Assembly: GCF_900290235.1 (NCBI RefSeq)
Contig: NZ_OLMK01000100.1
Span: forward strand, 1 to 64,000
DNA length: 64,000 bases
Direction: 5' to 3'
Origin: Streptomyces sp. MA5143a
GTDB taxonomy: Bacteria; Actinomycetota; Actinomycetes; Streptomycetales; Streptomycetaceae
Under the pieces are notes generated by a model. The model did no database searches. It was not told where the DNA came from and saw only the letters and a list, made by a program, of their open reading frames with translations. Position 1 is the first letter of the stretch. The number at the start of each line of letters is the position of its first letter. Below are positions 1-22,986 of this stretch, in pieces. The position numbers and the translations under genes were made by a program.

Positions 1-1
1 G

Positions 2-5524: not shown

Positions 5525-6559
5525 TCAGCCGGTGGCCCGCCCCTGGAGGGGACGGGCACCCCGGGTGCGGGCGTGCGCGCGGCGGGTGCGCAGCAGCTGC
5601 CGCCACTCCTCGGGGCTGAACCGGGCGGGGCGGGTGCGGCCGATGAAGTCGTGGAGCACCCCGAGGAATCGCTCCGGGTCCGTGTGGAACGGGAAGTGCC
5701 CGGCGTCCTCGAATATCTCCAGCCGGCTGCCCGGCATGGACACATGGCCGAGGCCGGCGTGCAGGGCCGGGACGACCATGTCGCGTCCGCCCCACACCAG
5801 CATCGTCGGCATGCCCTGCGTCAGATAGCAGCGGTCGAGCAGCGTGCCGACCTGGCCACGCCAGTCGACGACGGCCCGCAGGGTCCGCACGAACGCGCTG
5901 CGCGAACTCGCGTCCGGCAGGGCGTCCACCACCCGCAGCAGATCCGGCGCGTCCACCCCGAGCCCCGTGTTCAGGGTCTTCATGATCCGCACGAACATCT
6001 GCAACTGCCAGCGCACGGTGGGCAGTTGGAAGGCCGACAGCAGCAGTTCGGCGCCGGGTAGCGTGGCGGCCCGCAGCAGCGGGGAGACCTGGCGGCCGAT
6101 GCCGCCGCTGCCGACGAGGACCAGCCGCTCGGTGCGCTCGGGGAACTGGTAGGCGAACTGGGCGGCCACCGCGCCGCCGAGGGAGTGGCCGACGAGGGTG
6201 GCCCGCTCGATGCCCAGCGCGCTGAGCAGATCCCGCAGCCCGTTGGCGTACGCGCCCGGAGAGTAGTCGCCACGGGGCTTGGCGGACGCCCCGTGCCCGA
6301 GCAGGTCGGGGGCGAGGACCCGGTAGCGGGCGGCCAGGCCGGGGATGATGTCGGCCCAGGTCGCGGAGGAGTCGCCGATGCCGTGGATCAGCACCACCGC
6401 GGACTCGCCCTTGCCTGCCATGCGGTAGGCGAAGCGGTAGCCGTGCAGCTCACGGGTGCGGACGCGGATCTCGTTGCGGCCCACCGCCCGCGGCCTGGGC
6501 CGCCCCGGCTGGTGGCTGGGCCGGAACGGCGTGCGGGCGGTGAAGGGGTCGTCGGCCAT
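5525..6559 (-). CDS. Alpha/beta hydrolase
   Basis: A 344-residue soluble alpha/beta hydrolase. The oxyanion region VVLIHGIGDSS is near residue 56, the nucleophile elbow GHSLGG near residue 124, the acid is likely in VWGGRDMVVP near residue 258, and the His in EDAGHFPFH near residue 287. It closes the minus-strand biosynthetic series; its ribosome site AGGAGG lies inside the end of the small gene upstream, so the two are translationally coupled. In a tetronate pathway it could be an elimination enzyme, a type II thioesterase-like editing hydrolase or a lactone hydrolase. The N-terminal 30 residues are rich in Pro/Arg and not conserved-looking. Confidence 0.85.
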   Translation of the reverse strand: MADDPFTARTPFRPSHQPGRPRPRAVGRNEIRVRTRELHGYRFAYRMAGKGESAVVLIHGIGDSSATWADIIPGLAARYRVLAPDLLGHGASAKPRGDYSPGAYANGLRDLLSALGIERATLVGHSLGGAVAAQFAYQFPERTERLVLVGSGGIGRQVSPLLRAATLPGAELLLSAFQLPTVRWQLQMFVRIMKTLNTGLGVDAPDLLRVVDALPDASSRSAFVRTLRAVVDWRGQVGTLLDRCYLTQGMPTMLVWGGRDMVVPALHAGLGHVSMPGSRLEIFEDAGHFPFHTDPERFLGVLHDFIGRTRPARFSPEEWRQLLRTRRAHARTRGARPLQGRATG

Positions 6560-6562
6560 GGG

Positions 6563-6850
6563 TCAGGCCTCCTGCGGGATCGGATGGTGGTCACGGACGG
6601 GGCGGCGCGGGACCGGCGCGGACTCGACGACGTCCGGGGCGCCCGGGGCCTCGCCGCCGGCGGGGCCGGGGACGGGGACGCGCTGGGCGCGGAAGAGGAC
6701 CGGGTCACCGGGGACGCCCTCGGGATCGGGGTCGAGGCCGAGCGAGGTGAGGGAGCGCCAGGGCTGGGCCTGGCCGGGTGTCCTCGTCCGCCAGGGAGTG
6801 TGCGCCTGGGCCGGGGAGGAGGGAGCGCGGAGGGTGTGCACGGAGGACAT
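6563..6850 (-). CDS. Small proline-rich protein of unknown function
   Basis: A 95-residue hypothetical protein, rich in Pro, Arg and Val, with no recognised domain or membrane segment. The ATG at 6850 has AGAGG about nine bases upstream; a GTG at 6859 would add three residues. The stop is 3 bp from the ATG of the following hydrolase, whose Shine-Dalgarno sequence is embedded in this gene. That coupling is the main argument that it is translated. I do not recognise a family. Confidence 0.5.
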   Translation of the reverse strand: MSSVHTLRAPSSPAQAHTPWRTRTPGQAQPWRSLTSLGLDPDPEGVPGDPVLFRAQRVPVPGPAGGEAPGAPDVVESAPVPRRPVRDHHPIPQEA

Positions 6851-6967
6851 GACAGCCACCTCTGGGTAGGTGTGCGAGGAAGCGCACCGGGAACGGTCGC
6901 GGTTACCGCCGCCGACCGGTGGGGACGACGCCCGGCGCGGGGGCGCCGACGGACGGGTGCGGGACTC

Positions 6968-8257
6968 TCACTCGACGGGAGACCGGCGCGGCTGACGGGG
7001 CACGGCGTCGGCCCGGCCGACGACCCCGGTGCCGGAGCCGGAGGGGCCCGCCGCACCGGACGGCCCGACCACGGACGGCCCGACCATCCCGGACGCGCCG
7101 GCCACGGTGGACGTGCCGGGCGCGATGGACGTGCCGGGCGCCTCGGCGCCGACCGCGCGCAACAGGCCGGGCGCGCCGCCGGTCGCCCCCGGTCGCCGCG
7201 CCGCGCCGCCTGCGGACAGGGCGCTGCGGCCGCCGAGGCGGTGGGTGACGCGGGCCCGCAGCAGGGACGCGATCAGCCACTTCCGCATGGCCCCCAGGTG
7301 TGCCGGGGAGCCGTGGACGTCGTCGAACTCCTTGAAGCGCACCCGGGGCAGCGTGGCGCCGAGCAGCTGCCGCTCGGTGGGCGGGATGATCTCGTCCCGC
7401 GAGCTGACGACGTATCCGACGGGGATGTCGACCGCGCCCAGGACGTCCGGGCCGAGCGGGAAGTCGGCGAGCAGCGCCCGCAGGGCGTCGTCGTCGGGGG
7501 CTCCGGTGAGCCGGCGCAGCGTGGCGACGGTGATCCCGGGGACCCGGGGCCACCAGTCGGGGTCGTCGAAGAACCCGGCGACGGGGGCGCCGACGGTGTG
7601 GACGGAGCGGATGCGGGGGTCCTCGGCCGCCGCGCGCAGCGCCAGGTGGCCGCTGAAGCTGAGGCCGAGGACGGACGTGTCGGTCACCCGGGCCCGGCCG
7701 GCGAGTTCGTCCATCAGGAACGGCAGCAGCCGCCAGGAGTCGGCGTGGTAGCGCAGGGTGTTCTCGCCGACGCCGGGCATCTCGGCGACCACCGCCGCCC
7801 AGCCGAGGCGGGCGAGCCGGGGCAGCAGGGGCGCCCACTGCTCCTTGACGCTGACGATGCCGCCCATGACCAGCAGCAGCGGCCGTCGGCGGCGGGAGTC
7901 GAGTCCGCTCGCCCAGCAGGCGACCGTGCCGTCGGGGTGGTCGAGGACCAGGCGTTCGACGCCGCGCCGGCGGCGCCAGTCGTCGAAGGTGCGGACACAG
8001 TTGTCCTGGGCCCGGCGCCGGACGTCGTCGCCGTGGTACGGGAAACGGGCGAGCGCGTAGTGCCGGCACGCGTCGAGGGGGCGGCCCGCGACGGCCAGCC
8101 GGTCGGCCTCGCCGGTCCACACCCGGGCCCACGACGCGGGGTGTCCCGGCTCGTCGTTGGTGATCCTCGGCAGTACGGCCGCGACCTGGCGGTCACCGAT
8201 GCCCTGGCCGCGGGCGTGCAGCCGCGCGAACTCCTTGAGTTCCGCGAGATGGTCCAT
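6968..8257 (-). CDS. FrsA/DUF1100-like alpha/beta hydrolase, candidate tetronate eliminase
   Basis: A 429-residue protein with an N-terminal helical cap and an alpha/beta hydrolase core. The nucleophile is in LGLSFSGH near residue 198, the acid in SSRDEIIP near residue 290, and the His in DDVHGSPAH near residue 315. Such FrsA/dihydropseudooxynicotine-hydrolase-like proteins are large for the fold. Tetronate clusters carry an alpha/beta hydrolase (Agg5/AbyA5 type) that eliminates acetate from the acetylated intermediate; this gene or the one at 5525 is the candidate. The last 75 residues are a low-complexity Pro/Gly/Ser/Thr tail with repeats such as PGTS and GPSG, probably disordered. GGAG precedes the ATG by seven bases. 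Confidence 0.8.
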   Translation of the reverse strand: MDHLAELKEFARLHARGQGIGDRQVAAVLPRITNDEPGHPASWARVWTGEADRLAVAGRPLDACRHYALARFPYHGDDVRRRAQDNCVRTFDDWRRRRGVERLVLDHPDGTVACWASGLDSRRRRPLLLVMGGIVSVKEQWAPLLPRLARLGWAAVVAEMPGVGENTLRYHADSWRLLPFLMDELAGRARVTDTSVLGLSFSGHLALRAAAEDPRIRSVHTVGAPVAGFFDDPDWWPRVPGITVATLRRLTGAPDDDALRALLADFPLGPDVLGAVDIPVGYVVSSRDEIIPPTERQLLGATLPRVRFKEFDDVHGSPAHLGAMRKWLIASLLRARVTHRLGGRSALSAGGAARRPGATGGAPGLLRAVGAEAPGTSIAPGTSTVAGASGMVGPSVVGPSGAAGPSGSGTGVVGRADAVPRQPRRSPVE

Positions 8258-8511
8258 CGCTGTTCTCCGTCTCCTCCGGGATGCGGGTCCGATGCCCGGG
8301 GGATGCGGCCGGAGGGCTCGGGGCCTTCCTGGTCGTACCGGCGGCGGGCGGGGCTGTCCGGTCGTACGGCGGCGGGCCTGCCCGGCCGGGAGCGGGGGAT
8401 GTCCCCCGGCCGGGTGGCCCGCCCGGAGAGATCCTGGCCGCCGTCCCTTAAGCCCTGCTGGCGCACGGGTTGCGCCCCGCTAAGCGCTGCGCGTGGTGTG
8501 TCCCGCGCACG

Positions 8512-8550
8512 GTGTGCCGTGCGTGCGGTGCTTGGGGGCGCACGGCACAC
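8512..8550. repeat. 12-bp perfect inverted repeat
   Basis: GTGTGCCGTGCG (8512-8523) pairs with CGCACGGCACAC (8539-8550) around a 15-base loop. Its right arm overlaps the left arm of the next palindrome by three bases, so the two hairpins would compete. Confidence 0.85.
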
Positions 8551-8602: not shown

Positions 8603-8607
8603 GTCCC

Positions 8608-9498
8608 TCACCAGCCCAGGAGGGCGTCCTCTTCCCCGGCCCGGTCGTCGCACTCCACGTCGTCGCCCAGGGCCTCGGCCACGGCGGCGACGACCCGCGG
8701 GTCGAGCATGGTGCGGGCGTCGGTGTCCCGGGTGCCGCCGAACCCGGCGTCGCTGACCGCGACGCTGACGACATAGCCGTCGTCGACGGAGAAGGTGCGG
8801 AACTGCCACTCGACACCGGTGCCCGGCGCCCCGTCGGGAGCCAGGACCCTGGCGGGCCGGCCGTCGCCGCTGAAACCGAAGTCGGTGAAGCGGAACCGCA
8901 GCCCCTGCCCGATCGCCTTGCTGTAGGCCTCCTTGAGGGTCCACATCCGTACGAGCGCGGCGCCCCGCCGCTGCGCCGGGAGCCGTTCCAGGACGGTCAG
9001 CTCGTGCGGCGTGCAGACGTGGCGGTGCAGCCCGCGCGTGTAGAGCGGGCGGTCGGCCCGCTCCGCGTCCACCCCGATCAGCCCTTTCGTGGTGAGCCCG
9101 ATGAGCAGCAGGTCCTCGGTGTGGCTGAGGCTGATGTCCACCGCGTCGTAGCCGCGCAGATACGGGCGGCCGGTGGGGCCGTACCCGAGTTCGACGGCCT
9201 GCGGGGGCACCCGCAGCGCCACCGAGGCGGCGAACTTCAGCAGCACCCGGGACGCGGCGAACCGGGTCCGCACGTCCGGGTGCGTCATCTCCAGGTAGCG
9301 GTCCCAGTCCCGGCCCAGCAGGGCACGCAGCCGCGGGGCGCCCGCCCGGTCCGGCCGCCAGTCGGCGAGCCGGGCGTGCAACACCGCGACCTCGTGCTCC
9401 TCCAGGTCGGCGCGGACCTGGTCCCAGGCTCCGTCACGGCCGGAGATCCGCACCGGCTCCCCGAGCGATGGGCTGGGTGCCGTCCTCCTCCGCGTCAT
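8608..9498 (-). CDS. Sfp-type 4'-phosphopantetheinyl transferase
   Basis: A 296-residue PPTase that transfers phosphopantetheine from CoA to the serine of carrier proteins. Family motifs are present: DISLSHTEDLLLIGL, then LIGVDAERADRP near residue 140, and RMWTLKEAYSKAIGQGL near residue 185. It would activate the two free ACPs and the ACP of the KS-AT-ACP protein in this cluster. GGAGGG lies five bases before the ATG at 9498, which favours that start even though it overlaps the upstream gene by 65 bp. The C-terminal 40 residues are acidic and extend beyond the usual core. Confidence 0.93.
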   Translation of the reverse strand: MTRRRTAPSPSLGEPVRISGRDGAWDQVRADLEEHEVAVLHARLADWRPDRAGAPRLRALLGRDWDRYLEMTHPDVRTRFAASRVLLKFAASVALRVPPQAVELGYGPTGRPYLRGYDAVDISLSHTEDLLLIGLTTKGLIGVDAERADRPLYTRGLHRHVCTPHELTVLERLPAQRRGAALVRMWTLKEAYSKAIGQGLRFRFTDFGFSGDGRPARVLAPDGAPGTGVEWQFRTFSVDDGYVVSVAVSDAGFGGTRDTDARTMLDPRVVAAVAEALGDDVECDDRAGEEDALLGW

Positions 9499-10297
9499 CG
9501 AAGCCCTCCAATTCCTGCTTGAGATCCCCGAGTACGTCGGCGGCGGCCGCGCCGTCGACGACCCGGTGGTCGAAGGTGAGTCCGAGCCGCATCACCGGGG
9601 CGATGGCGAGCCGCCCGTCCTTGACGACGGGCCGCTCGACGACGCGTCCCGCGTTGAGGGTGATGGCGGTGCCGCCACTGGAGTGGAATCCGTCGACGGG
9701 GCGGTGGCCCAGCGAGCTGACCGCGACGGTGCCGAGGACGGCCGGCCGTCTCGCCGGGTCGCGGGTCGCGGCGGCGAAGGCCAGCCGGCCGAGCGGCACG
9801 GGCAGCCGGCCGAGCATCCGGACCCCGCGGAACTCGGCCATCCGCTCGGTGCCGGGGCCCCGGTAGCGGTCGACGCGTGCCTGGATCCCGTCGAGGTCGG
9901 CGCTCTCCAGGTCGGGCAGCAGCGCGGACAGCACGGTCCGTTCGCCGTCCACGGTGCGGTCCAGCGCCAGCTTGGCGGTGACGCCGCTGAACCGTACGGT
10001 GCGCGGTCCGCGCAGCCCGAACAGGCGGGCCGGGGCGAGGGCCGCGTTGGCCTCCGGGTGGCGGTGCAGCACCCGGCCGGTGGCGTGCAGCAGATAGGTG
10101 ACGACGGAGTAGCGGCGGCCGGCCGCCCGCGCGGCCCCGCGGTGGGCCTCGATCCGGGTCATGTCGATGTCGGTGTCGAGGTGCACGGGCCGCTGCCGGG
10201 CGGCGTGCTCCAGGAAGTACAGGGTGTGCCGCCGCCGGCGCTCGGGGTGCGCCCGGGCGGGGGCCGGCGGGTTCCCGCCGGCCCCGGCGGCGGTCAT
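9434..10297 (-). CDS. E2-type (2-oxoacid dehydrogenase) acyltransferase, tetronate acetyltransferase candidate
   Basis: A 287-residue protein consisting only of the catalytic domain of dihydrolipoamide acyltransferases; no lipoyl or peripheral-subunit-binding domain precedes it. The catalytic motif TFDHRVVDGA (His and Asp of HxxxD) is near residue 242. Free-standing E2 domains of this kind (Agg4/AbyA4 type) acetylate the hydroxymethyl group of tetronate intermediates so that acetate can be eliminated to an exocyclic methylene. The ATG at 10297 overlaps the stop of the ACP gene as ATGA, so translation is coupled; the open frame extends upstream to 10423 but inside the ACP gene. Confidence 0.88.
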   Translation of the reverse strand: MTAAGAGGNPPAPARAHPERRRRHTLYFLEHAARQRPVHLDTDIDMTRIEAHRGAARAAGRRYSVVTYLLHATGRVLHRHPEANAALAPARLFGLRGPRTVRFSGVTAKLALDRTVDGERTVLSALLPDLESADLDGIQARVDRYRGPGTERMAEFRGVRMLGRLPVPLGRLAFAAATRDPARRPAVLGTVAVSSLGHRPVDGFHSSGGTAITLNAGRVVERPVVKDGRLAIAPVMRLGLTFDHRVVDGAAAADVLGDLKQELEGFDDAEEDGTQPIARGAGADLRP

Positions 10298-10521
10298 GTC
10301 CGGGCCGCCAGCTGGTAGATCTCGCCGAGGCTGCGGGCCTCCAGCAGTCTGCCCACGGGCAGGCTGCGGCCGGTGGCCTGTTCCAGCGCGGTGACCAGTT
10401 TCAGCAGGTACAGCGAGTCCCATTCGGGCAGCTGGTCCAGGTCGGCGGAGACCTGGTACTCCTCCAGCGGCATGCCGAGCTCGTCCCTGACGAGGCGGAC
10501 GAAATCGTCGATGGTGTGCAT
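10294..10521 (-). CDS. Acyl carrier protein (glyceryl-ACP type)
   Basis: A 75-residue free ACP. The phosphopantetheine serine lies in LPEWDSLYLLKLV near residue 36. Its place between the KAS III-like enzyme and the E2-type acyltransferase matches the third gene of tetronate sets (RkF/AbyA3/Agg3), whose ACP carries the glyceryl unit made by the FkbH-like enzyme. GGGAGGG precedes the ATG. The WDSL motif differs from the GLDSV motif of the other free ACP (14713-15021), consistent with different partners. Confidence 0.92.
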   Translation of the reverse strand: MHTIDDFVRLVRDELGMPLEEYQVSADLDQLPEWDSLYLLKLVTALEQATGRSLPVGRLLEARSLGEIYQLAART

Positions 10522-10561: not shown

Positions 10562-11620
10562 TCAGATCTTCTCGAGCGCGAAACCGGACTTGATCCATTT
10601 GCTGGACTCGACGGCGACCGCCAGCGCGCGCTGCCCCTGGCCGATCTTGCCCAGCAGTCCCTCCAGTTGGAGGAAGGGCAGGGCGTTGCCGTTGTTGCCG
10701 GTGTCCGCGACGCAGGACACCTCGACGGCGTCGGGCAGTCCGAGTCCGTCCGCGATCCGCCGGGTCATCCGGCCGGACAGCTGCGGCGGCAGCAGGAAGT
10801 CCACGTCCTCGGGGGTCCAGTCGAGCTCCTCCAGGAGTTCCCAGAGGATCTCCACGGCCATGGTGGGGACGGACTCCTCGATGGCCTTGTAGTCCTCCCG
10901 GACGGCCTGCCGGTCCTCGTGGCGGTCGGCGAGCCCGAACCAGTCGATGACCTGGCCGGGTTCCCGGCCGAGTCCGGTGAACCGGTTGAGGACGGTGCGC
11001 AGGGCGAGGCGCTCTCCGCGCGGGGTCGAGGTGACCACGGCGGCGCCCGCCCCGTCGCCGAAGAGGACGTAGTTGACGAGGTCGCTGGGGGCGGCCGAGG
11101 ACAGGTCCCGGTCGAGGTCGAGGTGCTTGCTGCAGACGTCCCCGCCGATGACCAGTCCCGCCTTGTGGCCGCCGCCGGTGACGAGGGTGTGGCCCAGTTG
11201 CAGGGCCTGCACGGCGCCCGCGCAGCCGGACTGGAGCTGGTAGGTGGGGATCTGGTCGAGGCCCAGCTGGTCGACGACGTGGTTGACGGTGGCGGGCATG
11301 AGGTGGTCCGGGGTCGCGGTGCCCATGACCACGAAGTCGATCTCGTGCGGGGCGAGTCCGGAGGCGGTGAGTGCCTGCTCGGCGGCGCGGGCGCACAGGT
11401 CGGCGAGCGACCAGCGGACCTCACCGGTCTCCAGGTCGCGGGCGAAGTGCCGGGTCCGGGTGCCGATGAACACGTCGATCCACTCTTCGTTGACGCCGAG
11501 TGTCCTCGCCAGCGCCGCGTTGTCGACCGGGTCGCCCGGCAGCGCGGTGCCGACCGAGGCGAGGTAGGAGACGGCGCCGGGCGGTGCCGAGCCGTGCTGG
11601 GGCGAGTGTTCCGACTGCAT
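10562..11620 (-). CDS. KAS III (FabH)-like enzyme, tetronate ring former candidate
   Basis: A 352-residue thiolase-fold protein. The nucleophile Cys133 sits in QLQSGCAGAVQAL, and the Asn309 region reads TGNNGNA. The catalytic His of FabH (in VPHQAN) is replaced: the aligned segment here is LLPPQLSGRM, with Pro279 in the His position. In characterised tetronate pathways a FabH-like enzyme forms both the C-C and C-O bonds between a beta-ketoacyl thioester and glyceryl-ACP. Such a reaction needs no decarboxylation, which may explain the loss of His. GGAAGGA precedes the ATG. It lies between the PKS and ACP genes, as in known tetronate sets. Confidence 0.9.
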   Translation of the reverse strand: MQSEHSPQHGSAPPGAVSYLASVGTALPGDPVDNAALARTLGVNEEWIDVFIGTRTRHFARDLETGEVRWSLADLCARAAEQALTASGLAPHEIDFVVMGTATPDHLMPATVNHVVDQLGLDQIPTYQLQSGCAGAVQALQLGHTLVTGGGHKAGLVIGGDVCSKHLDLDRDLSSAAPSDLVNYVLFGDGAGAAVVTSTPRGERLALRTVLNRFTGLGREPGQVIDWFGLADRHEDRQAVREDYKAIEESVPTMAVEILWELLEELDWTPEDVDFLLPPQLSGRMTRRIADGLGLPDAVEVSCVADTGNNGNALPFLQLEGLLGKIGQGQRALAVAVESSKWIKSGFALEKI

Positions 11621-11677: not shown

Positions 11678-14600
11678 CTAGGCGACGGCCGAGCCGGCGC
11701 GGTCCTGGAGGTAGTCGACGAGGTCTCCGACCGAGGACAGTCGCGGGAGCAGGTCCTGCACGCTGATCGTCTCCAGCCCGTCGAGGCGTTCCTGGAGCCG
11801 GTCCTTCAACTCCATGATCATCACCGAGTCGAAGCCGAGGTCCTCGTAGAGCAGGGACAGCCGCGAGACCTCGTCCGTGGCGTAGCCGCCGACCTCCGCG
11901 ACGGCCTCGATGACGGCGCGGGTCACCGGGTCCACCGCCGAGTCCTCCACGGCGGAGGGCAGGACGGCGGTGAGCACGGCGCCGTGCCCGTGCGGGGCCG
12001 TCTCGTCCCGCGGGTGCGCCTGAGCGGTGTCCGCGTGGTCGGGGACGACGCTGAGGTCCGCCGGGGCGGCCCGTACGGTGGTGCGGGCCCAGAACCGGTG
12101 GGCGTCGGAGAAGGCGTACGGGGCGAGCCGCTGCGGCTGCCGCTCCTCCTGCGGGTAGACGGCGTCCCACCGGGGGTCGAGGCCGCTGCGGAAGAGTTCG
12201 GCCAGCGCCTCGGCGAAGGTGCCGCCGTCGGCCTCCTCACCCGACACGGGGGCGACGCTGTGCACACCGGCTCCGGCGGCGGAGCGCAGGGCGCGCGCCA
12301 TGCCGCTGAGCACCGGGCGGGGGCCGACCTCCACCAGATGGGTGGGGCCCGCCTCCAGCAGCCGGCTCATCGCGTCGCCGAACAGGACGGGGGCGCTGAT
12401 GTGCTCGGTCCAGTACTTGGCGTCCATCGGCTCGGCCTCCAGGAGCCGCCCGCGCACGGTGGAGTACACCGGGAGCTTGGGAACGCCGCCGCCCGTCTCG
12501 TCCGCGATCGCGGCGAACGCGTCGAGCATGGGTTCCATCAGCGGCGAGTGGAACGCGTGCGAGACCTCCAGGCGGCGGGTCCTGACGCCCCGTCGTCCGA
12601 GCGTGTCGTCGATGCGTTCCAGTGCCGCCAGGTCCCCGGACAGGACGGTGGCCCCAGGGCCGTTGACCGCGCCCACGCCGACCAGGGGCTCCGCGTCGAC
12701 GAGTTCGGTCAGCTCCGAAAGCGGCGCCCGTACGGCGAGCATGCCGCCGCCCTCGGGCAGCCGCTCCATCAGGGCGCCACGGGCGGCGATCAGCCGTGCG
12801 GCCTGCTCCAGCGGGAAGACCTCCGCGAGGACGGCGGCGGCGTACTCGCCGACGCTGTGGCCGAGCAGCAGCGCCGGCGGCACCCCGAGTTCGGTCAGGC
12901 TCGCCGCCAGGGCGTACTCCACGGCGAACAGGGCGGGCTGGGTCCAGCCGGTGCGGTGCACGGCCTCGTCACCGGAGAGCAGCAGGTCGCGCACCGAGCC
13001 GCCGAGGTGCGGGGCGAGCGCCTCGTCGGCCTCGTTGAGGAACCGCCGGTACAGCGGCGACTGGAGGTACAGCCGCGCCGTCATGCCCGGGTACTGGGAG
13101 CCCTGGCCGGTGAACAGCAGTCCCACCTGGGGCTTGCCCGTGGCGTTGCCGACGAGCCGGGCCAGCAGGTCGTCGTCGCCGGCGGCCTCGCGCAGGGTCG
13201 CGGCGAGTTCGCCGGTGTCCCGGGCGGGCAGCGCGAAGCGGTAGCGGTGCCCGGTCTTGGTCCGGTTGCTGCTCCAGCACAGCGGGCCGGCCGGGACCCG
13301 GCGCCGTTCCAGGGCGTCGGCCTGGACGAGCAGGTTGCGGCGGAGCGCGGCCGTCGAGGGGGCGGTCAGGGTGAAGACGCCGGCGCCGAGCCCGGTGGCG
13401 CCGGTGCGCCCGGCGTCCGGGTCCCGCTCCTCGGGGCGGGCGGCGTACGGCGGTGCGGACTCCAGGACGGCGTGGGCGTTGGTGCCGCCCATGCCGAAGC
13501 TGCTCAGGCCGCCGATCGCCGGTCCGGAGCGCAGCCGCAGCGGCGCCTTGAGGAGCCGTATGCCCTGCTTGGCGAGTTTCAGGGCGGGGTTCTCCTTGGC
13601 GGCGAACCGGCTGGCCGGGACCGTCTTGTGATGCAGCGACAGGGCGACCTTGATGAGGCCGGCGATGCCCGCGGCCCCCTCGGTGTGCCCGATGTTGCCC
13701 TTGACGGAGCCGAGGGCCAGCGGGCGCCCGGAGCGGCCGGAGTGCAGATGGCCGAGTGCCTTGATCTCGATCATGTCGCCGAGGACGGTGCCGGTGCCGT
13801 GGGCCTCGGTGAAGGTGACGTCGGAGGGGTCGACGCCGGCGCGGCGGTAGGCGGCGGCCAGCACCTCCTGCTGCGACCAGCGGTTGGGGGCGGTGATGCC
13901 GTTGCTGCGGCCGTCCTGGTTGACGGCGGTGCCGCGGATCACCGCGTACACCGGCTGGCCGTCGGCGATCGCGTCCTCCAGTCGGCGCAGCACCACCGCG
14001 CCGACGCCCTCGCCCCGGCCGATGCCGTCGGCGTCGGCGCTGAAGGGCTTGCACCGGCCGTCGGGCGCGGACAGTCCGGCCTGGGTGTAGAAGATGCCGA
14101 GCGCCGGGGTGAGCGCCACGTTGACCCCGGCGGCGATGGCGGTGTCGCACTCCCCCGCCAGCAGGGCGTTGCACGCCAGGTGGACGGCGACGAGGGAGGA
14201 CGAGCAGGCGGTGTCGACCGCGAGGCTGGGGCCCTTGAGGTCGAGGTGGTACGAGATCCGGTTGGCGGTCATGCAGTAGCCGTTGCCGGAGCCGAGCTGG
14301 GCGGTGACCTTGGCGTAGTCGGTCATGTGCAGGTGCGCCCACTCGTTGCCCATGATGCCGACGAAGACACCGGTGTCGGTGCCGGCCAGCTTCTGCGGGG
14401 CGACCCCGGCGTCCTCGACGGCCCGCCAGGCGCACTGGAGCAGCAGCCGCTGCTGCGGGTCCATGGCGGCCGCCTCGCGCGGGGAGACGGTGAAGAACTC
14501 GTTGTCGAAGGCGTCCGGGTCGGAGATGAAGCCGCCCTCGGTGGTGTTGGAGTGTCCTTCGGCGCCGGAGCGGGAGTGGAAGTCACGGGCGTCCCAGCGC

Positions 14601-14716: not shown

Positions 14717-15021
14717 CGATTCTCTCCCCCCATCTCCCCGAGCTCCTCCACCAGGTGCCCGGCCAGCGCCTCGACGGTCGGGTAGTCCCACGCCACGGTG
14801 GGTTCGAGGACGAGGTCGAAGTCCTCCTCGATGTCACCGCACAGGCTGAGTGCGGCCACCGAGTCCAGCCCGTACTCGGCCAGCGGCACGGTCGGGGAGA
14901 TCTCGGACGGTGTCCGCTTGAGGTACAGGGCGATCCGGTCGGCGAGCCAGCTGCTCAGCGACTCGACGGTGTGTGCGGTGTGCTCGTTGTTCGCGGTGCG
15001 GTCGGTCGCGGGAACAGACAT
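14713..15021 (-). CDS. Acyl carrier protein (starter acyl-ACP type)
   Basis: A 102-residue free ACP of the polyketide type with phosphopantetheine serine in EYGLDSVAALSL near residue 54. Located between the second acyl-CoA dehydrogenase and the PKS, it is the likely acceptor of the fatty acyl-AMP made by the ligase and the carrier on which dehydrogenation occurs, before transfer to the KS. GAGGAG lies seven bases before the ATG. Its stop overlaps the PKS start, so the two proteins would be made in step. Confidence 0.92.
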   Translation of the reverse strand: MSVPATDRTANNEHTAHTVESLSSWLADRIALYLKRTPSEISPTVPLAEYGLDSVAALSLCGDIEEDFDLVLEPTVAWDYPTVEALAGHLVEELGEMGGENR

Positions 15022-15066: not shown

Positions 15067-16866
15067 TCAGCCGGCCAGCGGGGTGTCGTAGAGGTCGTAG
15101 CTGCGGCGTTCGTGGAAGCGCCGGAGCACTTCTTCGTGCACCCGGGCCTCGCAGCCGGGCGGCAGGTCGGCCGGGCGCTGCCCGAGCCGTCGCGCCAGCC
15201 GGTGCAGTGCGGCGGCCACCCAGGCCGGGTCGGCCAGGAAGGGGTCGTCGCCGCCCTGTGCCCCGCGCCAGACGCCCAGGACGGACGCCGCCGCGAGGAA
15301 CACCGCGTAGCGGTCGGCGAGCGCGAAGCTGGCGGGGCTGGCGAGGGCGGTGCGGTCCTGCGGGGACAGGTTCAGGCTGTCCTCCTGGATCTGGCGCAGC
15401 TGGTCCAGGAGCCGCATGACGAGGGCCTGGACGGCGAGTTCCTCGGGGGAGCCGCTGGGCAGGTCGTCGGCGGCCGCGACGAGGGAGGCGCTGAGGCTGT
15501 CCCGGCCGCTGGCGAGGGCGAGCCGGTCGAAGGGGATGCCGGGCAGTGCCTCGCGGGGGCGGAACAGGCTCTGCGGGGCCTCGTCCCCGGAGAACCAGGC
15601 GCGCCGGGCCAGCCGGGACAGCTGCGGGATGATCGTGGCCTGGCAGGCGGCCGAGCCGGCGTGGCCGAGGCTGAGCACCGGCAGGTCACGGACGTGCTTC
15701 TGGAAGAGGCCGAACTCGCCCTCCCGGACGTAGAACCGCGCCCCGAGCACGATCGACAGGTCGTACATGGTGTCGGTGAGCATCTTGGGCACCAGGTACT
15801 TCACCGCGGCCGCGTACACGCTGGTCTCGTCGGGCAGCAGGTGCACCGCCCGGGTGCCGACCGTCGCCATGCTGTCGCAGATCAGCAGGTCGAGGAAGGC
15901 GCCGGTGAGGGTGGCGGAGGCGTGCGGTATCTCCATCACCGAACGCCGGTACAGCTGGCGTCCGAGGGCGAACCGCACGACCGTGCGCAGACTCGTGTCG
16001 AGGGCGCCGACGGCCATGCTGGGGACGGCGCTGCGGGTGATCTGGAAGGAGCGCAGCGCCAGTTCCACGCCCTGGCCGCGGGCGCCGACGAGGGTGCTGT
16101 CGGGCACCGGGCAGTCGGTGAAGTCCAGCCCGGACAGCCGGCAGCCACGCACGCCGACCGCGGAGTAGCGGGGCAGGACCGCGAAGCGCTCCGTGTCGAG
16201 CTGGTCGCGTTCGACGAGCAGCACCGAGTGGCTGCGGCTGCCGGGGCTGTCGTCGGTGCGGCTGAACAGGGCGTAGGCGTCGGCCCGGTCGGCGTTGTTG
16301 ATGACCTCCTTGCGGCCGTTGAGACGGAAACCGCCGGACACGGGCTCGGCGCGGAACTCGTTGCGCACGAAGTCGTTGCCGTGCGGCAGCTCGTGGTAGG
16401 CGACGGAGACCTTGGAGCCGCCGAGCAGCAGCTCCGCCGTCCGGCGGCGCTGCTCCTCGCTGCCGGCCGTCCACACGTTGACGGCGGCCATGAACGACGT
16501 GATGCCGTAGCCGAGGCCGAGCGCCACGTCGCGGCGGAACACCTGACGCATCACGCGGACGAGCGTGTCGAGGCGATCGAGGCGCCCGCCGAGGTCGGTG
16601 GGCACGAACTCGGCGTTGAGGACCAGGTCGTCGAGGAGCCGCTCACCGGCGGCGGGCAGTTCCCCCGCTTCGTCGGCGGCCAGCAGTCCGGCGGCGCCCA
16701 GCGGGTTGGCGGGGTCCTGGGGGTCCCCGAAGCGGCTCTCCAGGTCGGCGATCCTCGCCCGGACCGCGTCCTCCGCCGCCTTGTGGGCGGCCGGGTCGAT
16801 GGCAGGGGCGGTGCCGTTCGGGGCTGCGTCGCCGTGCAGCCCCTGGACCGCGGGATCACTCAGCAT
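15067..16866 (-). CDS. Acyl-CoA dehydrogenase family protein 2
   Basis: A 599-residue flavoprotein of the acyl-CoA dehydrogenase superfamily with a C-terminal extension. Recognisable parts are GLGYGITSFMAAVNVW, KVSVAYHELPHGNDF (flavin/substrate loop), RKEVINNADRADAY and ALGRQLYRRSVMEIPHA. The position that holds the catalytic Glu in MCAD-type enzymes (YEGT) reads SLGHAGSAACQ, without an acid. Pairs of long dehydrogenases beside a fatty acyl-AMP ligase and ACP are known from lipopeptide clusters such as ramoplanin and enduracidin, where they make a 2,4-dienoyl chain. The start overlaps the upstream dehydrogenase gene by 7 bp. Confidence 0.87.
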   Translation of the reverse strand: MLSDPAVQGLHGDAAPNGTAPAIDPAAHKAAEDAVRARIADLESRFGDPQDPANPLGAAGLLAADEAGELPAAGERLLDDLVLNAEFVPTDLGGRLDRLDTLVRVMRQVFRRDVALGLGYGITSFMAAVNVWTAGSEEQRRRTAELLLGGSKVSVAYHELPHGNDFVRNEFRAEPVSGGFRLNGRKEVINNADRADAYALFSRTDDSPGSRSHSVLLVERDQLDTERFAVLPRYSAVGVRGCRLSGLDFTDCPVPDSTLVGARGQGVELALRSFQITRSAVPSMAVGALDTSLRTVVRFALGRQLYRRSVMEIPHASATLTGAFLDLLICDSMATVGTRAVHLLPDETSVYAAAVKYLVPKMLTDTMYDLSIVLGARFYVREGEFGLFQKHVRDLPVLSLGHAGSAACQATIIPQLSRLARRAWFSGDEAPQSLFRPREALPGIPFDRLALASGRDSLSASLVAAADDLPSGSPEELAVQALVMRLLDQLRQIQEDSLNLSPQDRTALASPASFALADRYAVFLAAASVLGVWRGAQGGDDPFLADPAWVAAALHRLARRLGQRPADLPPGCEARVHEEVLRRFHERRSYDLYDTPLAG

Positions 16867-18740
16867 GACGTCCCCTCGGATGTCCGGGTGCCGCCGACGG
16901 CGACCCGGGTGTCGGTGTGTGCGTGCGCCGCGGCGGCCGGCGGACCGCCGGTCGTGCCGGGCGCGTGGGTGAGCGGGGCGGTGTCGCCGGGTGACCCGGC
17001 CGACCCGTGCAGCGCGAACGGGAACAGGGAGAACAGCTCGCCCGCCCCCCGTACGGCGCGCAGCCGCTCCAGCAGCGGGGGGTAGGCGTCGGGGTCGCCC
17101 GCGTCGGGCTCGCCCAGCCGCGCGAGCAGCCGGTCGAGGACGGGCCACAGCCACACCCCGTCCCGCCACAGCGGCCCGGTGCTCCCGGTCTGTGCCGCCC
17201 GGTGGTTGTGCGTCCACAGGCCGAGGCAGGCGGCGCCGGCCAGGCACAGGCTGTACCGCCGGGCCACGTCGAAGGCGGCGGGCGGCACATCGGAGACCAC
17301 GGTGCGATAGGCGTCCATCTCCTCGTGGACCCGGCCGGTCACGGCGAGCAGCCGCTCCGCCGCGCCGAGCGCGCCCTTGAGTTCGGGCCGCGCGCCGGCC
17401 TCGGCGCGCAGGGCCGCCACCGACGCGGGCAGGGTGGCCATGATGCCGCTGCCGCGCCGGGCCACCAGGGACAGCCGCTCCGGGGCGAGCGGGGGCAGCG
17501 GCTCCGCCAGGTCGAAGGCGCGGGCGGCGCCGGCCGTGTCGCCGGTGCCGCGCACCCAGCCGCGGGACAGCGAACGGAACTGGTTGACCAGGGAGTTGAG
17601 GTTGACCAGGGTGTTGCCGTCGAAGAGGCCGACGATGCGGTGGTCGCGGTCGACCTTCTGGAACATCCCGAGGGCGTGGACGTCCTTGAGGAAGGCCCGC
17701 GCCCCGAGCAGCCGGGTCAGCTCGGCGATCACTTGCTCGGTGCCGGTGGGCACCAGGTACTTGGTGACGGCGGCGGCCACGCTCAGCTCGTCGGGGACGG
17801 TGTGCACGGAGCGGGCGGCGACCGTGGCCAGCGCCTCCCCGGCGAGGACGTCCGCGGCGGCCGAGGCGAGCACGTGCCGTGCCTGCGGCAGGTCGACGAG
17901 GCGCCGCCCGAACAGTTCGCGCCGCTCGGCGAAGTCCAGGGCGATGTTCAGCGCGTGGTCGGCCGAGCCCAGTGACAGCGAGGCGCACATGGTGCGGGTG
18001 AGCTGGAGCGCCTTGAGCACGGTCTCGACGCCGCCGCCCTCCCCGCCGACCGCCGCGTCCGCCGGCACCGGGGCGCCGTCGAAGGCGATGCCGCTGATGT
18101 CGGCGCCCCGGATGCCATGCGTGTGGATCTTGTCGACGCAGCGGTAGTGCTCCCCCTGCGTCATCGGCCGCTTGTCGACGAGCAGCACGGTGAAGCCGCG
18201 CGGCCCGCCGTCCTCGGAGGTGCGGGTGAGCACGGAGAGCAGGCTGCCGCGGGTGGCGTTGTTGATCAGCCACTTCTCGCCGCTGATCCGCCAGCCGCCC
18301 GCTTCGTCGGCCTCGCCCCGCACGTCCCCGGCGAGCAGGTCGCTGCCGTGGGCGCGCTCGGTGAGGGCCAGCGAGACGGGCACGCCCGCCCGGATGTCCT
18401 CGGCGAGCCGGCGGGCCTGCTCGGGGGTGCCGGAGATCCAGACGCAGACCCCGCCCAGGTACGTCTTGCCGTGGCCGACGGCGACGGTCAGATCGCGGCG
18501 GGCCACGACCCGCATGACCTGCATGACGGTCTCGTAGTCGGTGAGCCTGCCGCCGTGCTCGGCCGGGATGTAGAACTCCTGGAGCCCCCAGCCCTCCAGC
18601 ACCCGGCAGATGTCGGACGGGAACTCCTCGTTCTCGTCCAGTTCCAGGCAGCGGGCGTGGGAGAAGGGCGTGGCGGGGTCGTCGGGGTCGCCGAGCAGCG
18701 ACTCCAGTTCCTGTGCGACGCGGTAAGGGGGATGGTCCAT
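16860..18740 (-). CDS. Acyl-CoA dehydrogenase family protein 1
   Basis: A 626-residue acyl-CoA dehydrogenase-like flavoprotein, paralogous to its downstream neighbour. The N-terminal domain has VSLALTERAHGSDL and EKWLINNATRGS, the middle has AERRELFGRRLVDLPQ. The catalytic-base segment reads VGLFDGNTLVNLNS, with Asp where MCAD has Glu. It most likely desaturates the fatty acyl chain bound to the free ACP. The ATG at 18740 sits 3 bp after the ligase stop codon, so expression is tightly linked to chain activation. The C-terminal 200 residues extend beyond the 380-residue family core. Confidence 0.88.
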   Translation of the reverse strand: MDHPPYRVAQELESLLGDPDDPATPFSHARCLELDENEEFPSDICRVLEGWGLQEFYIPAEHGGRLTDYETVMQVMRVVARRDLTVAVGHGKTYLGGVCVWISGTPEQARRLAEDIRAGVPVSLALTERAHGSDLLAGDVRGEADEAGGWRISGEKWLINNATRGSLLSVLTRTSEDGGPRGFTVLLVDKRPMTQGEHYRCVDKIHTHGIRGADISGIAFDGAPVPADAAVGGEGGGVETVLKALQLTRTMCASLSLGSADHALNIALDFAERRELFGRRLVDLPQARHVLASAAADVLAGEALATVAARSVHTVPDELSVAAAVTKYLVPTGTEQVIAELTRLLGARAFLKDVHALGMFQKVDRDHRIVGLFDGNTLVNLNSLVNQFRSLSRGWVRGTGDTAGAARAFDLAEPLPPLAPERLSLVARRGSGIMATLPASVAALRAEAGARPELKGALGAAERLLAVTGRVHEEMDAYRTVVSDVPPAAFDVARRYSLCLAGAACLGLWTHNHRAAQTGSTGPLWRDGVWLWPVLDRLLARLGEPDAGDPDAYPPLLERLRAVRGAGELFSLFPFALHGSAGSPGDTAPLTHAPGTTGGPPAAAAHAHTDTRVAVGGTRTSEGTSC

Positions 18741-18743
18741 GGT

Positions 18744-20549
18744 TCAGCCCACCGGTGCCATGGCCGGGTCGGCGGCCGGGGTGCCCGCCGCGGCGGCCGC
18801 GGCCGCTTCGACGAGGGTGCGCACCGACGGGTCCAGCACGGAGTGCAGCGCGGTGACGGCGCCCTGGAGGAACAGCTTGCGCATCAGGGTCCGCTGGATC
18901 TTGCCGCTGGTGGTCCTGCGGACGGTGCCGGGGCGGACCAGCAGCACGTTGCCGGCCGGTACGGCGAACTCCATGCCGATGTGCCGCTGGATGTCGGTGG
19001 CGATGCTCTTGAGGTCGTCGCCCGCGGCGGCGGCCCGGATCTCGTGGATCACCACGAGGTGCTCCTGGCCGCCGGTGTCGACGGCGAAGACGGCCCCGGC
19101 GCCGATCGCCGGGTTGAGGCCGCGGACCGCGCTCTCCACGTCGTACGGGTAGATGTTGCGGCCGTTGATGAGGACCATCTCCTTCAGGCGGCCCGTCACG
19201 AACAGCTCGCCGCCGCCCAGGACGCCCATGTCGCCGGTGCGCAGCCAGGCGCCCAGCTCCTCCTGGCCGGCGATGCGGGCGCCGAAGATCTCCGCGTTGA
19301 CCTCGGGCCGCTCCCAGTAGCCGGAGGCCACGCTGGCGCCGCGCACCCAGATCTCGCCGACCCGGCCCTCGGGCTGCTCGGCGAGCGTCTCGGGGTCGAC
19401 GATCCGCACCTCGAAGTCCTCGGCCAGCGCGACCCCGCTGCTGACCAGGGTGCGGCGCGGGGCGCCCAGGAACGGTCCGGCGAGGGTGCCCTGCTCCAGG
19501 CCGGCCGCGTCGACCTCGCGCAGCAGCGCGCCCCGCGTCTTGGGGGTGCCGGTCACCAGCAGGGTCGTCTCGGCCATGCCGTAGCAGGGGAACATGGTCT
19601 CCGCGCGGAACCCGTGGGGTCCGAAGCGCTCGGTGAACGCCTGGAGGGTCTCGGCGCGGACGGGTTCGGCGCCGTTGCAGGCGGTGCGCCACGTCGACAG
19701 GTCCAGGCCCTCCAGCTGCGCGTCGGTGACCCGGCGGACGCACAGGTCGTACGCGAAGTTGGGGCCGCCGCTCGCGTTCACGCCGTACTCGCTGACCAGT
19801 TCGAGCCAGCGGGCGGGCTTGCGCAGGAACGACACCGGCGGGATGAGCACGCTCGTGGTGCCCAGCCACAGCGGCTGGAGGATGTGCCCGATCAGGCCCA
19901 TGTCGTGGTAGAAGGGCAGCCAGCCGCCGATCATCGTGTCGGGGGTGTTGCCCGTGGAGCGGGCGATGGCCGCCTCGTTGGCGAGCAGGTTGCCGTGCGA
20001 GACCATCACGCCCTTGGGGGCGCTGGTGGAGCCCGAGGTGTACTGGAGGAAGGCCAGGTGGTCCGGGGTCAGCGCCGGGTCGCGCCAGGCGTCCGCGTCA
20101 CCGACCGTCCCCTGGTCGGTGGGCAGGCACACCACGTCGGAGAAGCCCTCGGCCGCCAGCCACGCCTCCACCTCCGGGGCGTGCTCGGCGAGGGTCAGCA
20201 CGGCGCCGACGCGGGCGTCGCGGACGATCCCCGAGACCCGGCGGAAGTGCTGGCCCTGCTCGGAGGGCAGGGGCGCGGGCACCGCGACGGCGCCGGCGTA
20301 GAGGCAGCCCACGAACGCCTTCACGAAGTCCAGGCCCGAGGGGTACAGCAGCAGGACCTGTCGTCCCGCGAGGCCCCGTTCCTGCAACCAGGACGCGATG
20401 TCCTTGGCCGCGCGGTCCAGGTTCCGGTACGGCAGTCGCTCGGGCTCCTTGCCCCGTACGCCGTCCGCGAGGAACAGGAACGCGTCCTTGTCCCTCTGTT
20501 CGTCCGACCGCGTCAGCACGAGCTCCGCGAATGAACCGAATTCCGCCAC
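18744..20549 (-). CDS. Fatty acyl-AMP ligase (FAAL)
   Basis: A 601-residue adenylate-forming enzyme. The P-loop-like motif is LQYTSGSTSAPKGVMVSH near residue 172, the core motif CYGMAETTLLV near residue 327, YWERPEVNAEIFGA, then LRTGDMGVL and the hinge GRLKEMVLINGRNIYP. FLRKPARWLELVSEY is typical of FAALs, which load fatty acids onto ACPs rather than CoA. It would start the pathway by charging the free ACP (14713-15021). The GTG at 20549 has GAGGGG about ten bases upstream; the open frame extends to 20717 but without family similarity. The C-terminal 50 residues are Ala-rich. Confidence 0.93.
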   Translation of the reverse strand: MAEFGSFAELVLTRSDEQRDKDAFLFLADGVRGKEPERLPYRNLDRAAKDIASWLQERGLAGRQVLLLYPSGLDFVKAFVGCLYAGAVAVPAPLPSEQGQHFRRVSGIVRDARVGAVLTLAEHAPEVEAWLAAEGFSDVVCLPTDQGTVGDADAWRDPALTPDHLAFLQYTSGSTSAPKGVMVSHGNLLANEAAIARSTGNTPDTMIGGWLPFYHDMGLIGHILQPLWLGTTSVLIPPVSFLRKPARWLELVSEYGVNASGGPNFAYDLCVRRVTDAQLEGLDLSTWRTACNGAEPVRAETLQAFTERFGPHGFRAETMFPCYGMAETTLLVTGTPKTRGALLREVDAAGLEQGTLAGPFLGAPRRTLVSSGVALAEDFEVRIVDPETLAEQPEGRVGEIWVRGASVASGYWERPEVNAEIFGARIAGQEELGAWLRTGDMGVLGGGELFVTGRLKEMVLINGRNIYPYDVESAVRGLNPAIGAGAVFAVDTGGQEHLVVIHEIRAAAAGDDLKSIATDIQRHIGMEFAVPAGNVLLVRPGTVRRTTSGKIQRTLMRKLFLQGAVTALHSVLDPSVRTLVEAAAAAAAGTPAADPAMAPVG

Positions 20550-20713
20550 CGTCTTTCCCCTCGCCTCGAAGCGACTCGTATCGCGTTGAAACCGGCTGAA
20601 CCGGCCGGGCCGGCCGCACCGGGTGGACCGGGCGGCCGGCCGGACCCACTGGTCCGCCCGACCTGTCGTGCCGATCGTCGGGTCCGTCTCTAAAGCCCCT
20701 CTTGCGGCCGACG

Positions 20714-21031
20714 TCACTCCCGTCGGCCGGGGCCGTCCTCCACCCGGCCGTGCCCCTGCAACTGCGCCCAGAGCTCCCGTTCACGCGGGGAGAGGGGCAC
20801 GTCGGCGACCAGGCGCTCGGGGTGGGCGGGCGGCGGCTCGTCGAGCGGCAGCGCGCCGCCCCGCGCCCCGGGGTCCGGGTCGCCGAGCCACCACTGTTTT
20901 GCCTGCTCGACGTGGGCCGGCGGCACCATGCCGAAGATGACGGCGAGCGCGCCGAAACCGTCCACGAAGAACGTGACGACGCCCCGCCAGACGCGGCGCG
21001 GAGACCACCACATGCCGGGCGGGGCCGCCAT
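20714..21031 (-). CDS. Small membrane-associated protein of unknown function
   Basis: A 105-residue protein with one hydrophobic segment (VVTFFVDGFGALAVIFGMV, residues 18-36) and a Pro/acidic C-terminal half ending in a charged helix (LSPRERELWAQL). The ATG lies 11 bp after the FkbH-like gene's stop, with GAGG nine bases upstream, so it belongs to the operon. It faintly resembles small unnamed Streptomyces proteins found in polyketide clusters (possibly DUF6059), but I am not certain. A membrane anchor or scaffold role is only a guess. Confidence 0.6.
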   Translation of the reverse strand: MAAPPGMWWSPRRVWRGVVTFFVDGFGALAVIFGMVPPAHVEQAKQWWLGDPDPGARGGALPLDEPPPAHPERLVADVPLSPRERELWAQLQGHGRVEDGPGRRE

Positions 21032-21042
21032 GTCGCCCCGCC

Positions 21043-22986
21043 TCAGGACGAACGCCGGGCGATGTCCGCGCTCAGCCGGACATGCGCCGGCGGCGTCGGC
21101 AGGTTCTCCTCGGACAGGTCGTGCCGGAACGACACGGTGCCGTCCGCGTCCTGCCCCGTCTCGGCGAAGCCCATCGACGGGTACAGGTCGCGCACCCGGT
21201 GGTTCTTGGCCGTCGGACGGTAGCGGGCGTGCACGGCGCCCGCCCCCCGGGCCCGGGCCTCGTGCAGCAGGGCGGTCAGGCAGGCCTGCTCGATGCCGCG
21301 GGCGAACACCCGGCAGCTCAGCAGCATGTTGTCGATGTGCCACTCGCCCGCCGGTTCGGCGCCGCTCACCAGGACGGCGCCGACGAGGCCGTTGTCCCCG
21401 AACCGGTCCGCGGAGCGGATGGCCAGCACCAGCCCGTCGGCGGACTCGTGCCGGGCCCGTACGTCGGCCTGCTGGAGCCGCTCGGTGGTGAGGTTGAACT
21501 GGTTGGTCCGCAGCGTCACCTGGGAGACGCGGGCGATCTCGTGGTCGCGTACGGGCGAGAAGGAGACCTCGACGCCCAGTTCGGCGAGGTACTCCTCCAT
21601 GGAGTCGGCGCTCTCCAGGAGGTCCTGGCGGGCCACCTCGGTGCGGTACTGGGTCGCGCGGGCGCGGTCCTCGGCGGTCAGCTCCCGCACGTCGAACCAG
21701 CCGTCGGCGAGCAGCCGTTCGATGTGCAGGGCGGGCTCCTCGTCGAGGCGGACCACGGCGACACCGGGCAGGCTGCGGGCCACCAGCCCGCACTCGAACG
21801 GGGAGTCGTCGGCGAAGACGAAGCTGTCCACCCCGAGGTTGAGCTTCTGGGCGATCTCCAGCAGGTTCCGGTCCTTGGGCTCCCAGTTGGCGGTGACCTG
21901 GACGAAGTCGCTCTCCCGCAGGGCCATGTCGGGGTGGTCGCGCAGCACTCCGCGGACGGGCTCGATGTCGTTCTTGCTGCACACGGCGAGCAGGACGCCC
22001 TGGGCGCCGATCTGTCCGACGGCCTTCTGGAAGCGGCCGAACGCCTCGCCCCGGTAGGTGGTGGCGGCGGCGATGCCGTCCGGGCCGTCGTCGCCGAGGA
22101 TGCCGTCCCACAGGGTGTTGTCCAGGTCGACGACCAGCACCTTCTTGGTGCGGCCGCGCAGCACCCGGGCCAGGTGGCCGACCTCGCGGGCGTAGCCGGC
22201 GAGGAGTTCCTCGCCGAACTGCACCTTGGCGTAGGCGGCGAGCCGGGGCTCGTTGACGGGGCCGCTGGAGGCGATCAGCGGGTCGAGGTCCACGACGTGG
22301 ACGCGGTCGTGCACGGCGGCCAGCCGGAGCAGCCCCGCGTTGAACTCCCGCCAGATCACACCGAGTCGGGCCCTGGAGCGGGCGTCGACCAGGCGGCGCA
22401 GCTGGGTGCGGAGGAGGGGCACGGTGTTGAGCACCAGGGTGCCGGCGCCGCGCGTGACATAGCGTTCCGCGAGCGAGCCGATCAGGGAGAGCTTGCCGGA
22501 GAGGACGCGCTGGACGTCCTCCACCGACCAGGGGTGCGGCAGTTCCGCGAAGACGATCTCGGCGTCCAGGACGCACAGCGCGAGGTCGGCGGCGTAGACG
22601 TCGCTGGAGATGTCGTGGAGGTCGCGCCGCCATGCGCCGTAGTCGCCCTCGGTCAGCCTGCCCAGCAGGCCGTGCCGGGCGAGTTCGGCGGTCAGCGGGG
22701 CGGTGAGCCCGCTCAGTGTGGAGCCGCCGGTGACGGCGACGGTGATCGTCTCGGTGCCGGGGTGCTCGCGCAGCACCTCCTCCCGGTCCAGCCGGGAGAG
22801 CAGCTGCCCGGCCCGCGCCAGGTCCGGGGCGGGCGGTCCGGCGGGGTCGCCCGCCGCGGCCAGCTCGGACAGCAGACCGGGCACCTCGTCGTACGCGTCG
22901 GCGAGGCGTCCTTCGGCGTGGAGGGCGCGCAGCCGGTCCAGCGGTCCGGTCCGCTCGCCCACGGCGGTGCTCACAACCGTGGCCAT
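21043..22986 (-). CDS. FkbH-like HAD-superfamily glyceryl-ACP synthase
   Basis: A 647-residue FkbH family protein. Residues about 80-230 form the N-terminal SGNH-like part (VTGGSTLSGL). The HAD phosphatase core has VLVVDLDNTLWDGILGDDG near residue 277, CSKNDIEPV and FADDSPFECGLV. The C-terminal part has LRTNQFNLTTERL and a GNAT-like fold. FkbH enzymes take D-1,3-bisphosphoglycerate, dephosphorylate it and load a glyceryl group on an ACP. Without the dehydrogenases needed for methoxymalonyl-ACP, the product here should feed tetronate formation. ATG 22986 is chosen because GGAG lies five bases upstream; another ATG is at 23001. It is the first gene of the operon. Confidence 0.92.
   Translation of the reverse strand: MATVVSTAVGERTGPLDRLRALHAEGRLADAYDEVPGLLSELAAAGDPAGPPAPDLARAGQLLSRLDREEVLREHPGTETITVAVTGGSTLSGLTAPLTAELARHGLLGRLTEGDYGAWRRDLHDISSDVYAADLALCVLDAEIVFAELPHPWSVEDVQRVLSGKLSLIGSLAERYVTRGAGTLVLNTVPLLRTQLRRLVDARSRARLGVIWREFNAGLLRLAAVHDRVHVVDLDPLIASSGPVNEPRLAAYAKVQFGEELLAGYAREVGHLARVLRGRTKKVLVVDLDNTLWDGILGDDGPDGIAAATTYRGEAFGRFQKAVGQIGAQGVLLAVCSKNDIEPVRGVLRDHPDMALRESDFVQVTANWEPKDRNLLEIAQKLNLGVDSFVFADDSPFECGLVARSLPGVAVVRLDEEPALHIERLLADGWFDVRELTAEDRARATQYRTEVARQDLLESADSMEEYLAELGVEVSFSPVRDHEIARVSQVTLRTNQFNLTTERLQQADVRARHESADGLVLAIRSADRFGDNGLVGAVLVSGAEPAGEWHIDNMLLSCRVFARGIEQACLTALLHEARARGAGAVHARYRPTAKNHRVRDLYPSMGFAETGQDADGTVSFRHDLSEENLPTPPAHVRLSADIARRSS

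Follow-up and report, generated by a model that had tools for sequence, protein, structure and literature searches.

The window analysed here, the 64,000 nucleotides at the start of contig C69 (NZ_OLMK01000100.1) in the 9.8 Mb genome of Streptomyces sp. MA5143a, contains a single minus-strand operon that is likely to encode a fatty-acid-primed tetronate pathway leading to a 3-acyl-5-methylene tetronate, a small acidic lipid, with one or two double bonds in its chain. Genes were called from codon-position GC and six-frame open reading frames (ORFs), by which the operon runs from an FkbH gene (22986) to an alpha/beta hydrolase gene (5525). Between 23.0 and 5.5 kb it joins three known parts: an acyl-loading and desaturation cassette, a polyketide synthase (PKS) module composed of ketosynthase (KS), acyltransferase (AT) and acyl carrier protein (ACP), and a glycerate/tetronate set. 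Families were assigned via Pfam and NCBIfam matches and the closest structures via PDB chain matches; a scan based on the 3-ketoacyl-ACP synthase III (KASIII) collected 80 related loci.

All enzymes named in a preliminary description of this DNA were found on the minus strand at 5525-23001, where the codon-position GC bias is strong. Domain searches and relatives confirmed both groups of genes that it had listed: the tetronate set (FkbH, KASIII, ACP, E2-type acyltransferase and alpha/beta hydrolase) and the genes joined to it, namely a fatty acyl-AMP ligase (FAAL), a second ACP, two acyl-CoA dehydrogenases (ACADs) and a single KS-AT-ACP module. Start and stop codons overlap as ATGA at the ACP1/PKS and ACP2/E2 junctions, and those of the two ACAD genes also overlap. 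A chance origin of the gene set is excluded because the full gene order recurs across dozens of species.

The condensing enzyme is FabH-like and of the tetronate type. Its best PDB match is 5by7, far above any FabH, and the PHQ motif of FabH reads PPQ (within PPQL) in the KASIII of all 80 relatives, with Pro replacing the catalytic His; HQ is kept in the readable FabH-like proteins of the window's own genome. The discrete ACP2 adjoins the KASIII and an FkbH is present (TIGR01686), which is the glyceryl-ACP arrangement of 3-acyl tetronate clusters. The two features of the exomethylene subgroup were also observed, an E2-type enzyme with its catalytic His (DHRVVDG in the window; DHxxxDG in 48 of 48) and an AbyA5-type eliminase with conserved residues (31 of 31). 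The latter aligns with the solved AbyA5 over 334 residues, with the Ser, Asp and His regions conserved. The preliminary description had named an alpha/beta hydrolase in the set; there are two, the eliminase at 6968-8257 and a second, generic hydrolase at 5525-6559. The second protein was considered as the eliminase and rejected, since its PDB matches are HsaD/BphD-like whereas 6968-8257 matches AbyA5.

Deletion of the five homologous genes of neoabyssomicin abolished the pathway or stalled it, as expected, at the hydroxymethyl or acetyl stage; loss of the E2 homologue left the hydroxymethyl intermediate and loss of the hydrolase homologue left the acetyl intermediate (PMC5819245). The corresponding agglomerin enzymes Agg4 and Agg5 have been reconstituted in vitro (PMC4979870). 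Because these experiments coincide with the KASIII, AbyA5 and E2 signatures, the outcome with the best support is acetylation followed by elimination, giving the 5-methylene.

The chain genes resemble those of rotihibin biosynthesis. FAAL, ACAD1, ACAD2 and ACP1 match RthH, RthI, RthJ and RthK pairwise (about 46-51%) and are colinear with them, whereas the identity between the two ACAD types is about 35%. In alignments, the catalytic Glu site is occupied by Asp (FDG) in 36 of 36 ACAD1 proteins and by His (GH) in 55 of 55 ACAD2 proteins. RthI and RthJ carry the same Asp and His substitutions, and the ordinary ACADs of S. scabiei have the catalytic Glu. RthH-I-J-K is the proposed route to the rotihibin tail. 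This tail is a cis-2-decenoyl group accompanied by minor forms that are 2 Da lighter, and the chain here could therefore carry one or two double bonds; the Asp/His substitution as an explanation of the cis geometry is speculation. In the PKS module, the KS has the active site TACSSS, and the AT bears HAFH, a malonyl-type motif by established AT signatures. The module has one ACP and no reducing domain, and therefore should leave the beta-ketone needed for tetronate closure.

We propose the following route. FAAL would adenylate a fatty acid and load it onto ACP1, where the ACADs would desaturate the bound chain, starting probably with ACAD2 at C2-C3, with ACAD1 optionally acting at a more distal position. 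The resulting enoyl or dienoyl chain, which may be cis, would be extended by the KS-AT-ACP module with one malonate, leaving the beta-ketone. FkbH would transfer glycerate from 1,3-bisphosphoglycerate onto ACP2, and the His-less KASIII would join glyceryl-ACP2 to the beta-ketoacyl thioester and close the 3-acyl-5-hydroxymethyl tetronate. The E2-type enzyme would then acetylate the primary hydroxyl, and the AbyA5-type lyase would remove acetate to yield the 5-methylene. Every proposed step has a known counterpart; we infer the chemical steps in this organism, the chain length, the number and geometry of the double bonds and the regulation. The product forecast of the preliminary description, a 3-acyl 5-methylene tetronate built from a desaturated fatty acid and one malonate, is supported by PPQL and the 5by7 match, the AbyA5 match, DHxxxDG and the chain genes, from which we infer the product.

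The related loci fall into types that form clades in the KASIII tree. Loci with two ACADs and E2 (class A) are complete in 30 of the 80; the window lies in the two-ACAD clade, from which three distant two-ACAD loci fall apart. Fifteen complete loci have a single ACAD, which is of the ACAD2 type, and lack both E2 and eliminase; ten complete loci have no ACAD and no E2, and 11 are large-PKS tetronate loci, including the S. abyssomicinicus locus. Among complete loci ACAD1 never occurs without ACAD2, and clade C has ACAD2 alone. E2 and an intact eliminase travel together across the loci. In the clade with neither E2 nor ACAD, the catalytic His is missing from all 8 of the 8 AbyA5 homologues (L045, L048, L049, L051, L055, L056, L058 and L061), a natural control tying the eliminase to the acetyltransferase. 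The tetronate-type KASIII was found in 49 of 296 sampled Streptomyces genomes.

Several observations weigh against the proposed pathway. None of these loci has been linked to a metabolite. That the chain is a diene is uncertain because, as rotihibin shows, two ACADs can give mainly one double bond, and the chemistry of both ACADs here is extrapolated because they are without the canonical catalytic Glu. The linked korAB genes described below and the second hydrolase are unexplained by the pathway. In one class A genome (L039, Streptacidiphilus jiangxiensis), the cluster has two ACADs and E2, and no close AbyA5 homologue was found genome-wide; its product may be an acetoxymethyl tetronate.

The last case favours an end product that stays at the 5-hydroxymethyl or 5-acetoxymethyl stage, like RK-682, a known tetronate with a sequenced cluster (PMC4979870), the E2 and AbyA5 homologues being inactive or acting elsewhere. 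The catalytic motifs are kept throughout (E2 48/48, eliminase 31/31), and the apparent loss of the eliminase from its usual place in L033, L034, L035, L038 and L040 was rejected as a true loss, since each of these five genomes retains an orthologue at 62-70% elsewhere; such an outcome is thus unlikely. The methylene tetronate could also be an intermediate whose exocyclic methylene and dienoyl chain undergo [4+2] addition, yielding oligomeric or spiro compounds in the manner of quartromicin, given that the predicted molecule contains a dienophile together with a possible diene. The spirotetronate features are lacking in the cluster, which has one PKS module only and no AOC-like (AbyU/VstJ-type) Diels-Alderase; the sole AOC_like match in the genome is on another contig. 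An intramolecular reaction would moreover be geometrically implausible for a diene that adjoins the ketone, and we regard this fate as quite improbable. The homology to RthH-K also raises the question of whether the FAAL-ACAD cassette belongs to a lipopeptide pathway and merely adjoins the tetronate cluster. The conserved block is without a nonribosomal peptide synthetase, and the cassette, PKS module and KASIII adjoin one another in 30 complete loci as well as in divergent clades, with overlapping start and stop codons, which makes this separation very hard to sustain. The tetronate pathway ending in the 5-methylene remains the preferred interpretation.

The gene set combines known modules in an apparently new way; it is widespread and does not constitute a new kind of system. 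RK-682 has a hydroxymethyl group and a saturated fatty acyl chain. It is a 3-acyl tetronate formed by the rk cluster of Streptomyces sp. 88-682 via RkD (KASIII), RkE (FkbH) and the ACPs RkC and RkF (PMC4979870, PMC5819245). Compared by description and not by rk sequence, the present cluster is predicted to share the fatty-chain 3-acyl tetronate type and adds E2, the eliminase and two ACADs. Like agglomerin (agg, likened by description) and abyssomicin/neoabyssomicin (aby, abm), it has the five-gene set with acetylation-elimination to an exocyclic methylene. In contrast to the abyssomicins, which depend on long modular PKSs as well as a [4+2] step, it has one module and a FAAL-loaded chain. With rotihibin rthH-I-J-K, also noted as similar to ramoplanin, it shares an identically ordered cassette of FAAL, two ACADs and ACP with the same Asp and His; in rotihibin, however, the acyl chain starts a lipopeptide and here it enters a PKS/tetronate route. 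An RK-682-like cluster was reported in strain HM190 (PMC7333363). The HM190 genome holds a closely identical copy of the window's genes (L050, 84-100%), and 'cluster 10' of that study is likely this locus. The preliminary description had called the product possibly undescribed. A literature search for it, and for tetronates in S. scabiei, found nothing, with most subscription journals outside its coverage; the cluster, however, is common and not unique, and RK-682-like Streptomyces clusters have been surveyed (PMC7333363, PMC6522549).

Table 1. Genes of the proposed tetronate operon and of its linked left flank.
Feature	Position	Strand	Evidence
FkbH-like glyceryl-ACP synthase (HAD)	21043..22986	-	TIGR01686 E 2.8e-93; PDB 3slr; sole copy found in genome
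FAAL, start codon uncertain	18744..20717	-	PF00501 E 4e-67; FAAL NCBIfam models; closest PDB chains mostly FAALs; about 48% to rotihibin RthH
ACAD1, acyl-CoA-dehydrogenase-like, Asp (FDG) for catalytic Glu	16860..18740	-	PF00441/02770/02771; about 46% to RthI
ACAD2, acyl-CoA-dehydrogenase-like, His (GH) for catalytic Glu	15067..16866	-	PF02770/PF00441; 47-51% to RthJ
ACP1, putative FAAL-loaded acyl carrier	14713..15021	-	PF00550 E 2.8e-15; 48% to ACP in RthK position; Ser motif 64/64
KS-AT-ACP single PKS module, malonyl-type AT (HAFH), no reducing domains	11678..14716	-	PF00109, PF02801, PF00698, PF00550
Tetronate-forming KASIII (RkD/AbmA1-type)	10562..11620	-	PDB 5by7 E 4e-118; PPQL 80/80
ACP2, putative glyceryl carrier	10294..10521	-	PF00550; WDS motif; DS motif 70/70
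E2-type O-acetyltransferase (Agg4/AbmA4-type)	9434..10297	-	PF00198 E 1.5e-17; DHRVVDG; motif 48/48
Phosphopantetheinyl transferase (PPTase)	8608..9498	-	PF01648 E 6e-16; absent from some relatives
AbyA5/Agg5-type acetate eliminase, variable C-terminal tail	6968..8257	-	PDB AbyA5 5no5 E 1.1e-82; Asp-Glu and His motifs 31/31
98-aa ORF, doubtful	6563..6859	-	No Pfam match; conserved in near relatives only, 44-97%
Second alpha/beta hydrolase (HsaD/BphD-like), accessory	5525..6559	-	PF00561 E 4.5e-33; PDB HsaD/BphD; absent from several complete relatives
SARP/AfsR-type activator, linked regulator	2007..4739	+	PF03704, PF00486, PF00931; syntenic
AfsA-like enzyme (butyrolactone-type signal synthesis)	723..1937	+	PF03756 E 4e-30; 22/32 class A loci listed, some absences being contig ends
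Ferredoxin (7Fe FdxA-like)	387..707	+	Fer4 matches; linked in relatives
korB 3' end (2-oxoacid:ferredoxin oxidoreductase beta); contig starts within gene	1..307	+	

The cluster span of 5525-22986 given in the preliminary description holds for the gene content, but its left edge is the generic hydrolase and the right border lies at about 23.1-23.5 kb. Alignment to HM190 reaches 23536 and then jumps to 31527; that to S. scabiei reaches 23140 and resumes at 43356. Beyond the border, [2Fe-2S] and molybdopterin subunits of the xanthine-dehydrogenase type (23737-26343), with no FAD subunit adjoining, are followed by a LuxR regulator (26502-29537). These genes are present in S. ossamyceticus, whereas HM190 and S. 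scabiei lack them at the corresponding position. This hydroxylase pair and the LuxR gene were rejected as cluster members because HM190 and S. scabiei skip the stretch just past FkbH; the S. scabiei homologue of the molybdenum-cofactor enzyme lies 2.9 Mb away. Farther right are a 989-aa protein (31528-34497), with a class-III aminotransferase in its last 390 residues only and no Pfam match in the first 590 or so, and an oligopeptide-type ABC transporter (36023-38044) in which a single reading frame encodes permease (BPD_transp_1) and ATPase as a fusion, adjoining an amidase and a solute-binding protein.

On the left side, the locus continues on the plus strand with a Streptomyces antibiotic regulatory protein (SARP), AfsA, ferredoxin and korB, whose linkage to the cluster recurs in many Streptomyces relatives. 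The SARP probably controls the cluster, probably with an AfsA-made signal. The AfsA homologue (404 aa) would use substrates like those of the tetronate synthase, a beta-ketoacyl thioester and a C3 unit, and it is conceivable that the signal derives from the same acyl chain as the tetronate.

Of the 118 Streptomyces genomes that gave a match, most carry just one strong korB. Among the cluster carriers checked, a second korAB adjoins the cluster in nearly all readable genomes; S. brasiliensis (L033) keeps only the ferredoxin beside it. The linked korAB and ferredoxin regions include window 1-707 and L113:1579-4943. The korA tree pairs the linked copy with the housekeeping copy of its own genome, as sisters, for HM190, S. 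stelliscabiei, S. griseosporeus, G103 and G094 (support 99-100). The same holds in G038 for a second copy located 18 kb from a cluster with one ACAD, but not for the linked copy of S. scabiei. This pattern indicates that gene conversion or repeated re-duplication has homogenised the linked korAB with its housekeeping counterpart in most genomes (concerted evolution). In the window's genome, korA occurs as two fragments only, both stopping at residue 141, and C69 starts inside korB, as would be expected if two near-identical copies had been collapsed during assembly. It is a doubtful idea that the korAB and ferredoxin copy is part of the system, with the tetronate acting on 2-oxoacid:ferredoxin oxidoreductases, the extra copy protecting the producer by dosage and gene conversion keeping it near-identical to the housekeeping copy. 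The near-identity of the copies argues against a resistant variant, and korAB as a resistance gene was not found in a literature search that left most subscription journals outside its coverage.

The korAB copy might point to a target. The Asp/His ACAD pair raises the question of how carrier-bound chains, possibly with cis double bonds, are made. The cluster points to a large and conserved family of Streptomyces pathways that is apparently uncharacterised and whose product can be forecast with unusual precision; at about 18 kb, the cluster is small enough to be expressed whole. The sister clades without ACADs, acetyltransferase or eliminase provide ready-made controls for each step.

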